A stretch of DNA of 64,000 bases, from contig JAJZNE010000106.1 of the NCBI GenBank assembly GCA_021847995.1, positions 1 to 64,000 of the forward strand, given 5' to 3'. This document shows, piece after piece, positions 44,632 to 48,734 of the stretch. This DNA is from Pseudomonadota bacterium (GTDB lineage: Bacteria > Pseudomonadota > Alphaproteobacteria > Acetobacterales > Acetobacteraceae). Below the pieces are notes generated by a model. It ran no database searches. It was not told the DNA's origin and was given only the letters and a program-made list of their open reading frames with translations. The translations under genes were made by a program, and so were the position numbers. The stretch's first letter is position 1. Every line of letters starts with the position of its first letter.

Positions 44632-45274
44632 CCGGGCAGGCGGCACCGTCGGCGGCCTGCGACGCCCGCGCGCGCCGGGGGCATGGGTCGCCGTCCTGCG
44701 CGTGACGGCCCTGCCGCCGCCGGGCGCTGCATCCCACCTGCGCGGCGCAATCGCCGCTGATGTCCGGCCGGCCTGACCGCCGGGGCGGGGACGGCCACGA
44801 TCACTTCCTGGTGAACGCTCGGGCGGCGGACACGCGCCGCCACGCCCGTTGTCACCTCTCCGGCGACCCGCCCGGCCCGGCGCCTTTGCCCGACCCGGCG
44901 CGGTTCCCGGAAAGTCCACGCGCCCGCGATCCGCACCGCGCCGCCCGACCCGCCCCCCTTCCGCCCGAGTCCCGGCCCGGCCCGGCCACTCCCGAGAATT
45001 TTTTGCGCCCGGGGGGCCGGGCCGCGCGCAAACAGTATGGACTCGATAGCACCTTTCTGCTAACAAACTCGTATCGATAACCGTATGGCGACCCGACAGT
45101 TCTGCGGGCCGCCGTTGGTCGTTCCATAAAGTATTTTGGAACGTGGTCGGATAGAAAATTAAATCCGCGGAGCGGCTCACTTGCCCTCTTGACGCGGATA
45201 CGCAATTACAACCTAAATCATACAAACAGACGTGCGCAGGCGAATATTGCTCCGGCTTCGAAAGGACACAACCT
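44632..45274. other. 643-bp gene-free stretch with a base-composition switch
   Basis: The first 380 bp are very GC-rich, with no credible gene. After about 45001 the composition drops (an AT-rich stretch with TTTTTT, TATCGATA and ATAGAAAATTAAAT). The second half holds a perfect 7-bp inverted repeat (45120-45143) and TTGACG at 45189-45194, which could be the -35 of a promoter for the acyltransferase; a -10 such as TAAATC is only a weak match. No tRNA or IS end was seen at the boundary. Confidence 0.5.
45120..45143. repeat. Perfect inverted repeat CGTTCCA-N10-TGGAACG upstream of FeeM-like gene
   Basis: Two perfect 7-bp arms (45120-45126 and 45137-45143) are separated by a 10-bp AT-rich spacer. 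The centre is 143 bp upstream of the start codon. The spacing resembles an operator for a dimeric regulator. Classic lux boxes are different in sequence, so no regulator is named. Confidence 0.5.
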
Positions 45275-46141
45275 ATGGATGGTTCGATTTACAGCGGATT
45301 CGACCGCAAGTTGGAAAGGGACTTGGAGTCGAACATCTTTGACGCGCCAAAGATAACGGCGCGGCTAGCGCTCAATGAAGAAGTCTTGCGAGAGGCTTGG
45401 ACCGTTCGGCACGCGGCGTATGCCGCACAGGGGCTGATCGTTCCAAATGAAACCGGAATGCTTCGCGATGACTGGGACTTTTCGCCGGCCACCAGGGTTA
45501 TTGTGATCTACAAAGACGGAGACCCGGTCGCAACTGCACGGACTTCGCTCTACGCGCCACAGAGTGGTATCGAAGGCGCAGATGCTGTGCCTTCAATGGC
45601 GATGTTTGAATCCGAAATTCCGTCGATTTATCAAACACTGCCGTATGATGATGGTTTCGCTCGGGTTATCGACATCTCCCGGCTTGGCCGCCATCCATCG
45701 CTCGGAACAGACTGCGAACCCGTGTTCGCCATGTACCGCATGATCTCCTATCTCGTGCTGCACTACAAGGCGGACGCGCTGATTTCGGCAGTCCAGAGGC
45801 ACCATATTCCCTTCTACCGGCGTATGGGCTATCGACAAGTGGCGGAGCCGAAAGCACACCCGAGGTTGAATCTGGCAGCGGCCCTGATGGCATGCGTGCG
45901 CCCCAAGGACGGTCACTTGCGCGAATCCATACCTGTTCTTGGTCTGGTCGCCGAGAGTGATAGCAATTATGCTGGATTCATTCGCGGTGACCTCGTTCCC
46001 GTTTTCGGCACCGGTACGTCACCGGCAGAATTGAACGGAACCTTCGGCGGCCGCATGGTGGGGGTTCGTGGAGGATCGCGCGCTCGCCAGGAGCGAAGCG
46101 CGGCTTTGCCGCAGCAGAGCGATATGTCGGTTGCCGCATGA
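45275..46141 (+). CDS. N-acyl amino acid synthase FeeM-like / LuxI-fold GNAT protein
   Basis: This 288-aa protein has the FeeM catalytic-core type of the GNAT/LuxI fold: LREAWTVRHAAYAAQGLI, an acidic stretch LRDDWDFSP, VIVIYKDGDPVATARTSLYA, and ARVIDISRLGRHPS. Members make N-acyl amino acids or related signals from acyl-ACP. A 70-residue C-terminal tail is low in order. The start has AAAGGA upstream. Codon usage and GC are lower than in neighbours (mid-50s percent versus about 70), consistent with transfer. It precedes a GGDEF-EAL gene by 151 bp. The activity is a family inference; acyl-homoserine lactone synthesis is an alternative. Confidence 0.65.
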   Translation: MDGSIYSGFDRKLERDLESNIFDAPKITARLALNEEVLREAWTVRHAAYAAQGLIVPNETGMLRDDWDFSPATRVIVIYKDGDPVATARTSLYAPQSGIEGADAVPSMAMFESEIPSIYQTLPYDDGFARVIDISRLGRHPSLGTDCEPVFAMYRMISYLVLHYKADALISAVQRHHIPFYRRMGYRQVAEPKAHPRLNLAAALMACVRPKDGHLRESIPVLGLVAESDSNYAGFIRGDLVPVFGTGTSPAELNGTFGGRMVGVRGGSRARQERSAALPQQSDMSVAA

Positions 46142-46292
46142 GCGGCAGGCCGGCCCCGTTGCCGGCGTCGAAAGCGCAAAGTGACGACGCGCTTTCGACG
46201 CGGCAAGGTTTTTAGTTTGGCGCTGACCTTCCGGCCGCGGTATGATGTGGGGTGAGACCACGCCCGTCTTCGAGGCCATCCCGGAAGGTCTA

Positions 46293-48734
46293 ATGGTTGC
46301 GATTCGTCACGTCAGGATCAGGAATATCCTCGGATCCTGGCACACATCGCCGGCCGATCCGCTGCATCAACTGGTGCAGCAGCGCATTCGTGCGACGCTG
46401 CTGAGCGGATGGCTCAAGGTCGGGCTGCTCAACGTACCCGTGGGCATTGTGGTCGCCACGATCCTGTTTGCAAGCCAATGGCGCCAAATGGGCAATCCAT
46501 GGCTGCTCACGGGCTTCGCTGCCATCGTCGCAAGCTATGCCGCGCTTCTTTGGCTGTGTCTCAGCTGGGCACATCGAAGCCCTGCGGCGGATGATGTCGG
46601 GCCACGGTTCCGGCGGCTTCTTGCCGTTCGCTTCATTCTGACGAGTTCCTGGGCATTCGGACTGGTTGCGCTGTGCGCAGTTTCGGGACCGCCCGGCGGC
46701 GGCATTCTTTTCGGCGTTTCCGGCGCGCTGATGTCGATGTCCGTCTTCAGCAGCCCGATTGCGTTCGCGATGTCGGCATGGATCCCGGCAACGATCGGGG
46801 CAATTGGCACCGCCATGCTTATCGGCACTGCGCCGACAGTATGCGCCATCGCCTACACGATTCTGACCTATTTCGCCATTCTTTCGTTCGACAAGCAAAT
46901 GATCGAACGAACCCGCAACACCATCCGCATCGAGCGGTACGCCGAAACCGTCCGCATCCTGCTGCGCGATTTCGAGGAAAACGCGAGCGACTGGCTGTGG
47001 GAGGCCGATGGCGACCTGATCCTGCGCCATGTCTCGGCACGCTTTGCCCAGGTGGCGCAGCGTCCCGCCGAGCAGATGGAAATCGGGCTGGTCGCCCTGC
47101 TCGCCGGCAACGCCGCCGACCCCCCCGATCGCAGCCTCGAGCTGCTTCAGTATCGTCTCCAGGCCCACGCCGCCTTCCGCGAACTCGTCGTGCCCGCCAT
47201 GGTCGGGGCGGAACGGCGCTGGTGGGCGCTGACTGGCAAGCCGCTGTTCAACGCCGACGGCAGCTTCGGCGGCTATCGCGGCGTCGGCTCCGATGTCACC
47301 ACCGCCCACCGCTCGCGCGAACGCATCGCCTATCTCGCCCGCCACGACACGCTCACCGACCTCGCCAACCGCGCCGGCTTCAACGACGCCATCACCCAGG
47401 CCGTCGCCGCCTGCCGCACCCAGGCCGCCGCCCTGTTCTGCCTCGATCTCGACGACTTCAAGACCATCAACGACAGCTACGGCCACGACGTGGGCGATTC
47501 GGTGCTGCGCGCCGTCGGCCAGCGCATCCGCGGCGTGCTGCGCGAACACGACATGGCCGCGCGCCTCGGCGGCGACGAATTCGCCGTCCTGCTCAGCGTC
47601 ACCGGCCGCGATGAGGCCGCCGCCGTCGCCGCCCGCCTGATCGAGGCGCTCACGCCGCCCTTCGCCTGCGGCGACCTCGACATCAAGATCGGCAGCAGCG
47701 TCGGCATCGCGCTCGCGCCCGATGACGGCGACGATCCGGAAATTCTCTACCGCAACGCCGATCTCGCCCTCTATCGCGCCAAGGCGGCGGGGCGCGGCAC
47801 CTGGCGGCTGTTCGACCCCGACATGGACCGCCTCCTGCACGATCAGCGCCTGCTCCAGCGCGACGTGCGCGAGGCGCTGCCCAAGGGCGAACTCTTCGTC
47901 GCCTATCAGCCGATCGTCGATCTGCGCAGCCGCGAACTCGTCTCGCTGGAGGCGCTGGTGCGCTGGCGCCATCCCGAGCGCGGCACCGTCCCGCCCGCCA
48001 CCTTCGTCCCCGTCGCCGAACAGAGCGGACTGATCGGCGCGATCGGCATGTTCGTGCTGACCGAGGCGGTTCATCTCGCACTGCAACTGCCGCCGCCGAT
48101 CCGCATCGCCGTCAATCTGTCGCCGCTGCAACTGCGCGACGAATCGCTGCTCGATCGCGTGCGCGCCGTGATCGAGCCGACCGGCCTGCCGCACGAGCGC
48201 ATCGAGTTCGAGATCACCGAATCGGTGGTGCTGGAAACCAGCGGCCGGTCGCTCGAGAATCTGCGCGGCCTGCGCGCGATCGGCCACCGCGTCGCCATCG
48301 ACGATTTCGGCACCGGCTATTCCTCGCTCGCCGTGCTGCGCGACTTCCCGTTCGACCGCCTGAAGATCGACCGCAGCTTCATCACCGATCTCGATGCCGA
48401 TCACGGCGACGGGCCGATCGTCAAGGCGATCATCGGTCTCGGCCGCGCCCTCGGCATCTCCGTCACCGCAGAGGGCGTGGAATACGAGCGGCAGGTCAAC
48501 CTGCTCGCCGAATACCGCTGCAACAATGCCCAGGGCTACTATTTCGCCCGGCCGCTGACGCCGGCCCAGGTGCTCGCCCTGCTCGCACCCGTCGCCGGCC
48601 AGGCCGCGCATGGCACCGTGGCGCTGCCCCTGCCGGCCCAGCAGCGGTGGGAGGACGCACCGCGCGAGGTGATCGAGCCGGCCGCCGTGGTGCGGCTGCC
48701 CCGGTCGCGCCCGCGTCTCGTCCGCAATGCCTGA
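46293..48734 (+). CDS. Membrane GGDEF-EAL c-di-GMP protein
   Basis: This 813-aa protein could both make and degrade c-di-GMP. Five or six membrane segments lie at about 30-200 (GLLNVPVGIVVATILFA and following). A PAS-like region (about 225-345) leads to a GGDEF domain with intact GGDEF (426-430) and an I-site RxxD (REHD) five residues before it, so it is probably product-inhibited. The EAL domain follows with EAL at 553-555, NLSPLQLRDESLLDRV, DDFGTGYSSLAVLRDFPFDR and KIDRSF. The start at 46293 has GGAAGG 7 bases upstream; an upstream ATG at 46242 lacks this. The 5' third has lower GC than the rest. Confidence 0.93.
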   Translation: MVAIRHVRIRNILGSWHTSPADPLHQLVQQRIRATLLSGWLKVGLLNVPVGIVVATILFASQWRQMGNPWLLTGFAAIVASYAALLWLCLSWAHRSPAADDVGPRFRRLLAVRFILTSSWAFGLVALCAVSGPPGGGILFGVSGALMSMSVFSSPIAFAMSAWIPATIGAIGTAMLIGTAPTVCAIAYTILTYFAILSFDKQMIERTRNTIRIERYAETVRILLRDFEENASDWLWEADGDLILRHVSARFAQVAQRPAEQMEIGLVALLAGNAADPPDRSLELLQYRLQAHAAFRELVVPAMVGAERRWWALTGKPLFNADGSFGGYRGVGSDVTTAHRSRERIAYLARHDTLTDLANRAGFNDAITQAVAACRTQAAALFCLDLDDFKTINDSYGHDVGDSVLRAVGQRIRGVLREHDMAARLGGDEFAVLLSVTGRDEAAAVAARLIEALTPPFACGDLDIKIGSSVGIALAPDDGDDPEILYRNADLALYRAKAAGRGTWRLFDPDMDRLLHDQRLLQRDVREALPKGELFVAYQPIVDLRSRELVSLEALVRWRHPERGTVPPATFVPVAEQSGLIGAIGMFVLTEAVHLALQLPPPIRIAVNLSPLQLRDESLLDRVRAVIEPTGLPHERIEFEITESVVLETSGRSLENLRGLRAIGHRVAIDDFGTGYSSLAVLRDFPFDRLKIDRSFITDLDADHGDGPIVKAIIGLGRALGISVTAEGVEYERQVNLLAEYRCNNAQGYYFARPLTPAQVLALLAPVAGQAAHGTVALPLPAQQRWEDAPREVIEPAAVVRLPRSRPRLVRNA

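Follow-up and report, generated by a model that had tools for sequence, protein, structure and literature searches.

Which function might an acyltransferase gene of the FeeM family serve when it lies directly in front of a gene for an enzyme that makes and breaks down cyclic dimeric guanosine monophosphate (c-di-GMP)? This question is raised by a locus in a 64,000-nucleotide stretch of DNA (contig JAJZNE010000106.1, positions 1 to 64,000, assembly GCA_021847995.1; hereafter the window) from a member of the Acetobacteraceae, whose genome (G000; 4.27 Mb) is 94% complete. Our analysis suggests, with roughly an even chance of being right, that the two genes encode a cognate signal synthase and a receptor that acts on c-di-GMP. 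This proposal draws on the recurrent adjacency of the two genes in several arrangements and on a co-inheritance that discriminates even between paralogous pairs within a genome. The genes and the domains of the second protein are as follows.

45275..46141, + strand: FeeM-family acyltransferase resembling N-acyl amino acid synthases (288 aa; PF21926 match, fold match to 2g0b)
46242..48734, + strand: c-di-GMP enzyme with six transmembrane helices, PAS, GGDEF and EAL domains, putative cognate receptor (830 aa; Pfam; orthologues in congeners)
46359..46982, + strand: six-helix membrane sensor region, its final helix continuing into PAS (AlphaFold2 mean pLDDT 92.6, six long helices)
46980..47312, + strand: PAS domain (PAS_4, E 1e-3, under the Pfam cut-off; fold matches to PAS/LOV domains)
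47337..47798, + strand: GGDEF domain with an RxxD I-site (PF00990, 3e-45; motif check)
47859..48554, + strand: EAL domain with catalytic signatures (PF00563, 3e-71; motif check)

The acyltransferase and its six-helix partner

The acyltransferase had been introduced as FeeM/LuxI-like in a preliminary description of the locus, and the FeeM part of this assignment stands. PF21926 (FeeM) recognizes the protein with an E-value of 1e-26 and 94 bits against a curated cut-off of 27, and it is the sole Pfam family matched at E<=1 by open reading frame 45275-46141. AlphaFold2 predicts the core of the protein with high confidence, and the top match of the predicted fold in the PDB is FeeM itself (2g0b; E 1.8e-12, TM-score 0.82 on the target). 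GNAT enzymes and N-acyl-homoserine lactone (AHL) synthases, LasI, BjaI and EsaI among them, come next. The LuxI part holds for the fold only, as the LuxI profile (PF00765) does not match at E<=1; NCBIfam likewise gives no match. Across 68 FeeM proteins from the Acetobacteraceae (hereafter the family), PF00765 yields a single weak match (E 0.005).

We mapped the catalytic glutamate column onto Glu95 of FeeM, the residue named as catalytic, by way of a homologue (L218) aligned to 2g0b. The window protein carries Asp133 at this column, which is occupied by Glu in 66 of the 68 family sequences and by Asp in those of the window and of locus L056; outside the family, Asp is found in 23 of 30 FeeM sequences. 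Together with Asp133, Gln174 and His195 depart from a near-invariant Glu, Arg and Tyr, and the remaining conserved residues are retained. Since Asp is frequent at the Glu column outside the family, the window FeeM could be active, and catalysis by it is possible; its predicted product is an N-acyl amino acid.

The signatures of the second protein are all intact, namely RxxD (REHD), GGDEF and EAL, as the preliminary description had reported. Its distance of 151 bp between the genes fits a later ATG at 46293; the first ATG of the GGDEF-EAL gene is at 46242, and the gap is consequently 100 bp. Orthologues with 64-65% identity adjoin FeeM in two congeners (G002 and G003). Reception of a signal through the membrane part, as had been suggested, is plausible in view of the six-helix region, which we regard as a putative sensor. 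As regards the six-helix part, 61 partner proteins gave, against Pfam at E<=0.01, only matches to PAS, to methyltransferase-like families (in long partners) and scattered weak ones to DPM3 and DUFs. In structure searches with the receptor, the match lists were occupied by PAS; the six-helix part was thereby barely probed, and no fold relative of it emerged.

Pairing and co-inheritance of the two genes

In a sample of 397 Acetobacteraceae genomes, we examined all 68 FeeM loci listed at >=72 bits and two weaker ones, leaving out matches at 52-72 bits and below 32 bits, and scored a gene as a neighbour throughout when it lay within 1.5 kb. A GGDEF(-EAL) gene is found near FeeM at 62 of the 68 strong loci, and these pairs fall into three arrangements: the partner lies downstream on the same strand (23), is divergently oriented (36), or lies downstream on the opposite strand (3). 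Three of the six unpaired loci (L021, L084, L088) are cut by contig ends at the expected position of the partner. Neither of the two weaker loci, which are not counted in the 68, is paired; at L020 the FeeM frame contains a stop, and L114 scores 33 bits. L022 in genome G025, with E 3e-4 in one search and unmatched in the family profile search, was not counted. None of 20 weak FeeM-like controls from the family (32-52 bits) is paired; for three of them the contig breaks off less than 1.5 kb away on one side. As a genome holds about 20 GGDEF/EAL candidates, we estimate that chance would place one beside FeeM in a few per cent of cases. A search for related loci with the single window FeeM protein as query confirmed nothing. 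Five receptors beside FeeM (L017, L095, L097, L098, L104) are short (508-568 aa) and have a GGDEF domain without an EAL match; they are perhaps cyclase-only proteins or cut frames.

The converse approach, in which the membrane domain alone served as query against named genomes and the best 80 of 186 relatives were considered, leads to the same association. Sixty-seven of these 80 score >=170 bits, and FeeM is near 59 of the 67 (22 on the same strand, 37 divergent). Among the eight others, L133, L138 and L145 are at contig ends, L137 keeps a methyltransferase gene, L176 has a FeeM remnant, and L134, L146 and L168 are solo receptors. At L137 (5708-9544, Acidocella facilis), the methyltransferase and receptor genes are kept, FeeM was not found, and behind the receptor gene lies an open reading frame that, by eye, resembles a transposase. 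No FeeM lies within 1.5 kb of the relatives below 170 bits, which comprise 13 loci, mostly from Methylobacterium, Methylorubrum and Aurantimonas. At five loci of these three genera (L170, L180, L182, L187, L188), the receptor-like gene stands tail-to-tail with a gene for a protein of about 600 aa, similar-looking by eye between loci, in the place of FeeM, possibly a second kind of partner.

FeeM is present in 4 of 385 genomes of a class sample (E<=1e-12), including two Acetobacteraceae, and in 36 of 398 genomes of a phylum sample (E<=1e-15). Beyond the family, our analysis covered 35 loci, of which 34 came from the phylum and one from the class sample. A GGDEF-EAL neighbour is present at 24 of them, all in two alphaproteobacterial families (f171, 10/10; f174, 14/14), and 23 of these 24 pairs show a fourth arrangement with the GGDEF-EAL gene first on the same strand. 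There are hence four arrangements overall, and adjacency therefore outlasts rearrangement. The order FeeM, methyltransferase, receptor occurs outside the family at L245, and likewise in Tianweitania, Fulvimarina and Aureimonas. Of the 23 receptors whose gene comes first, three were scanned, and all contain PAS_7. Homology between the membrane half of the f171/f174 receptors and that of the window protein was considered and rejected: the layout is alike, the similarity not significant (hhalign E 0.23). A PilZ tail suspected by eye in L223 found no support in Pfam. On plasmid pACRY02 of Acidiphilium cryptum (L257, 3734-5762), FeeM is divergent from a gene whose 383-aa product weakly matches a helix-turn-helix domain, and it is followed by an integrase gene; L256 has a similar layout, only the L257 protein having been scanned, and FeeM may there have a transcription factor as receiver. 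Collectively, the pairing of the acyltransferase with a c-di-GMP enzyme, which the preliminary description had proposed to look for in other genomes, does recur in Alphaproteobacteria far beyond chance (62/68, 59/67 and 24/35, with controls at 0/20).

The sets gathered by way of FeeM and of the receptor overlap to a large extent, so that of 121 pairs 84 remain once redundancy is removed; 83 nonredundant pairs entered a comparison of distances, the other 38 of the 121 being redundant or unusable. FeeM distances correlate with those of the membrane domain (r 0.83 over the 83 pairs), a value reached in 0 of 999 free permutations. Thirteen genomes contribute two or three FeeM-receptor pairs, and when FeeM was permuted only within genomes, the correlation was lower in 999 of 999 trials. 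For 26 of 28 FeeM proteins, the nearest foreign relative is among the three nearest of the protein's own receptor. Co-inheritance is thus specific to individual paralogues; it supports a view of the two genes as one unit without pointing to any one domain as the binding site.

A third gene often joins the pair. At 35 of the 70 family loci, a membrane protein of 180-200 residues with an ICMT/PEMT methyltransferase motif is encoded, 31 times after FeeM on the same strand (in four cases fused to the N-terminus of the receptor), three times before the receptor on its far side (L060, L067, L068), and once overlapping the 5' side of FeeM (L056). All 22 members scanned match PEMT and ICMT profiles at E<=0.1, and a structure search matched ICMT (4a2n, 5e-8). 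The gene is present in 18 of 23 same-strand versus 11 of 36 divergent family pairs; in the receptor-ascertained set it occurs at 41 of the 67 loci and is fused to the receptor in six. At L104 (6656-7233), a methyltransferase gene split into several frames lies between FeeM and the EAL-less receptor; it is not among the 35. The gene is missing from the loci of the window, G002, G003, G047 and genus g136, and a genome-wide search of G000 and G002 found none at E<=0.001. Its absence in G000, in G002 and at the g136 loci rules out the ICMT-like gene as a required part of the system. Because ICMT methylates carboxyl groups, an N-acyl amino acid methyl ester is a natural guess for its product. Such esters of alanine have been described from Roseovarius, with no synthase known for them (PMC11580390).

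Genomic setting, origin and transcription

Three further features lie upstream of FeeM and between the two genes.

44724..44939, + strand: probable remnant of the C-terminal part of a decayed transglutaminase/DUF2126 gene (tblastn, weak evidence)
45189..45219, + strand: conserved promoter-like element TTGAC-N7-NGCAATTACAANCTAAATC upstream of FeeM (core common to G002 and G003)
46159..46213, + strand: long hairpin followed by TTTTT, terminator-like, between the two genes (fold statistics of the gap)

The acyltransferase gene had been singled out for its low GC content and deviating codon use, and both observations are correct. Its GC content of 0.57 is the minimum among the open reading frames picked across the window (next 0.64), and GC at its third codon positions (GC3) is 0.62, compared with a minimum of 0.78 and a median of 0.87 for 50 window open reading frames prefiltered for coding-like GC3 excess. 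Low GC3 extends into the membrane half of the receptor (0.71 vs 0.90 in the catalytic half). Across the family, FeeM lies below the mean GC of its neighbours in all 57 computable loci of the 62 paired ones, a comparison restricted to open reading frames >200 aa with GC3 excess and thereby biased to high-GC neighbours, and it lies below its own partner in 48 of the 62. Low FeeM GC is consequently a trait of the family and not a sign of recent arrival in the window.

The gene-free stretch in front of FeeM, given as about 640 bp with a switch in composition, spans 44632-45274 (643 bp), and its GC content falls near 45000; the part from 44632 to 45000 is very GC-rich (up to 0.79) and includes the probable DUF2126 remnant. 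Over about one third of the stretch there is a weak resemblance to the C-terminus of DUF2126 proteins, with 37-39% identity across 57-87 aa in tblastn, at the expected place and on the expected strand. Two of three queries detect it over the whole window (E 0.006 and 0.008), where it is the sole match at E<=0.01; the third (L014) finds nothing in the whole window at 0.01 and reaches 2e-4 in the 800-bp gap alone. In both congeners the DUF2126 gene is intact (PF09899, E 0, in L254 of G002 and L014 of G003). In G003, the DUF2126/transglutaminase gene, FeeM and the GGDEF-EAL gene are consecutive on one contig. One contig of G002 ends with an FAD oxidoreductase gene like that of the window and DUF2126, along with the promoter element and the opening codons of FeeM; the remaining FeeM and the GGDEF-EAL gene are at another contig end, alike by eye, and no exact overlap of the ends was found. 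In the window, no intact gene comes after the oxidoreductase gene at the place where the congeners have DUF2126.

As the congeners carry the pair and its promoter element behind DUF2126, and as FeeM GC is low family-wide, the pair does not appear to be a recent import, and recent acquisition is rejected. The idea of a small acquired unit, put forward in the preliminary description, is hence not supported; the window itself retains a weak DUF2126 remnant in the corresponding position. A location of the pair elsewhere in the congeners was likewise dismissed, except for the downstream flank, which differs between the window and G002/G003. The pair is variably present within the genus: in G001 and G004, no receptor orthologue is seen at E<=1e-150, and the window protein as query detects no FeeM. 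A 3.2-kb contig of G004 carries a weakly FeeM-like gene (33 bits) and no GGDEF gene. No clean empty site was found; the SufE-like gene and the oxidoreductase gene are on separate contigs in the congeners.

The core of the promoter-like element likewise precedes FeeM in G003 (L014) and G002 (L254). In the genome of the window it has one site at <=3 mismatches, and a reversed control has none. The intergenic gap as a whole folds with -52.7 kcal/mol (z -2.9), and none of 200 shuffles was equally stable; a simple terminator scan, limited to loops of 3-8, skipped the hairpin. Rfam gave no match above the gathering score upstream of or between the two genes. As FeeM appears to have its own promoter-like element and the hairpin separates the genes, cotranscription in the window is doubtful, and it is ruled out at 36 of the 62 paired family loci by their divergent arrangement.

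Proposed mechanism, its rivals and known systems

The data lend themselves to the following scheme. FeeM would link a fatty acyl chain, taken from acyl-acyl carrier protein (acyl-ACP), the known acyl donor of FeeM, to an amino acid or a similar amine. The product would remain in or cross the membrane and act on the six-helix domain or the PAS domain of the partner, which would then shift its balance of diguanylate cyclase and phosphodiesterase activity and thereby change cellular c-di-GMP. In many relatives, the ICMT-like enzyme beside FeeM or fused to the receptor would probably methylate the lipid carboxyl group, the genome of the window representing a version without it. Direct contact between FeeM and the receptor, as between RpfF and the FI domain of RpfR, would be an alternative route. 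A bolder proposal, which we advance tentatively and hold to be rather doubtful, is that N-acyl amino acids, in many lineages probably as methyl esters, would be autoinducers and would constitute a signalling class of their own in Alphaproteobacteria. A dedicated sensor of six helices would read them within the membrane and be coupled directly to a cyclase/phosphodiesterase; no transcription factor would take part as receptor, and one acidophile genome would have up to three complete, specific channels.

Several observations weigh against the interpretation as synthase and receptor, whose logic is based on genome context. FeeM is rare across the class sample; 11 of the 35 loci outside the family are unpaired; three family FeeM genes (L056, L113, L115) genuinely have no partner; the three solo receptors have room upstream, yet no FeeM; and of four plasmid FeeM genes the three examined, two from Acidiphilium and one from Rhizobium, have no complete receptor. 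Over the 74 pairs with an EAL domain, EAL distances track those of FeeM as well (0.85) as the membrane domain does (0.83), PAS and GGDEF reaching 0.64. A partial correlation of 0.69 given GGDEF had suggested a co-evolution specific to the membrane domain; since EAL correlates equally, this candidate was dropped, and we claim only co-inheritance of the whole pair. Finally, Asp133 of the window FeeM stands at the column whose glutamate is essential in Nas354, where a Glu-to-Ala exchange is described as abolishing activity (PMC4897644).

This last point feeds the suspicion that the window copy is decaying, its FeeM having lost the catalytic Glu and the locus probably a neighbouring gene, so that the receptor may act alone. 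The replacement of three near-invariant residues and the probable DUF2126 remnant immediately upstream are in keeping with decay, but the frame is open, the promoter-like element and the other conserved residues are kept, and Asp is frequent at the Glu column in FeeM proteins outside the family; we consider decay unlikely. Hardly credible is the notion that the genes are chance neighbours or share a mobile island without a functional link. The compositional difference of FeeM and its presence on Acidiphilium plasmids near an integrase gene would fit an island, yet the frequency of pairing, its several arrangements, the cognate partnering and the unpaired controls speak against it, the plasmid FeeM genes examined are without the pair, and the receptor-ascertained count and the within-genome permutation mostly refute it.

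The main rival reverses the direction of control: the GGDEF-EAL protein would sense another cue, c-di-GMP would control FeeM, and the N-acyl amino acid would be an end product such as a surfactant, membrane lipid or antibiotic. It is compatible with a synthase-receptor relationship. A precedent exists in the FeeM-type synthases Nas343 and Nas354, which Thies et al. describe as carrying a C-terminal PilZ-like c-di-GMP-binding domain, with regulation by c-di-GMP proposed and a surface-active product (PMC4897644). However, PilZ is matched at E<=0.01 in none of the 68 family FeeM proteins, and several parallel pairs per genome, in which every FeeM has a partner to itself, are easier to reconcile with separate signals than with a common second messenger driving several synthases; we hold reversed control to be rather unlikely. 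FeeM, with or without the methyltransferase, might also make the cell's own membrane aminolipid, which the six-helix domain would gauge with no signalling from cell to cell. Sensor and ICMT-like partner are indeed both membrane proteins, but the low conservation (mean pairwise identity over 74 pairs 0.37 for FeeM and 0.27 for the membrane domain) and the parallel paralogous pairs resemble signal specificity and not a housekeeping lipid, which renders such self-monitoring quite unlikely.

If the proposed synthase-receptor pair is real, the poorly understood N-acyl amino acid lipids would gain a role as signals. Some Acidiphilium are described as lacking the capacity for AHL production (PMC9040811), and the FeeM product may for this reason be a cell-cell signal of Acidiphilium. 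It may thereby also matter for the biofilms of acid mine drainage and of bioleaching. The pair makes testing feasible in genera with named strains, namely Acidiphilium, Acidocella, Roseomonas, Rhodopila and Aureimonas.

Among known systems, RpfF/RpfR invites comparison. RpfF belongs to the crotonase-type enzymes and produces an unsaturated fatty acid, whereas the synthase here is of the FeeM/GNAT family and fold and is often accompanied by an ICMT-like methyltransferase. In the Burkholderia/Cronobacter system of the Burkholderia diffusible signal factor (BDSF), adjoining genes, there convergent, encode a synthase using acyl-ACP and a PAS-GGDEF-EAL receptor; the fatty-acid signal binds the PAS domain of the latter and stimulates c-di-GMP breakdown (PMC6361424). 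In RpfR, as described there, the place of the six membrane helices of the window receptor is taken by a soluble FI domain, to which RpfF binds.

The FeeM/NasY synthases share with the window protein the Pfam family and the fold, but the literature describes them as enzymes of surfactant or antibiotic formation or as linked to PEP-CTERM/exosortase systems (PMC4897644). The exosortase profile PF09721 finds no match in G000 or G002, and one each in G003, G139, G272 and G327, on other contigs or >600 kb from FeeM. A survey of type strains has already reported NasY homologues in three of Acidiphilium and in none of the other Acetobacteraceae that it covered (PMC8776678); by our profile search, FeeM is far wider in this family than the reported findings indicate. 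Nas343/Nas354 likewise tie a FeeM-type synthase to c-di-GMP, but in their case the proposed binding site of c-di-GMP is on the synthase (PMC4897644), whereas the window pair is without PilZ and the partner makes or breaks c-di-GMP. At nspI of Nitrospira, an autoinducer synthase gene also adjoins a divergent GGDEF/EAL gene; that synthase, however, makes AHL, and the LuxR-type NspR1 is described as receiver, with a common lux box (PMC8553950). LuxI-type AHL synthases have a related GNAT-like fold, but their profile does not recognize the window protein. A description of FeeM paired with GGDEF-EAL proteins was not found in searches of the open-licence PMC literature, by which absence from print is not established. 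A signal synthase joined to a PAS-GGDEF-EAL receptor is a known kind of system; the predicted chemistry, the membrane sensor and the methyltransferase set the present pair apart as a new form.

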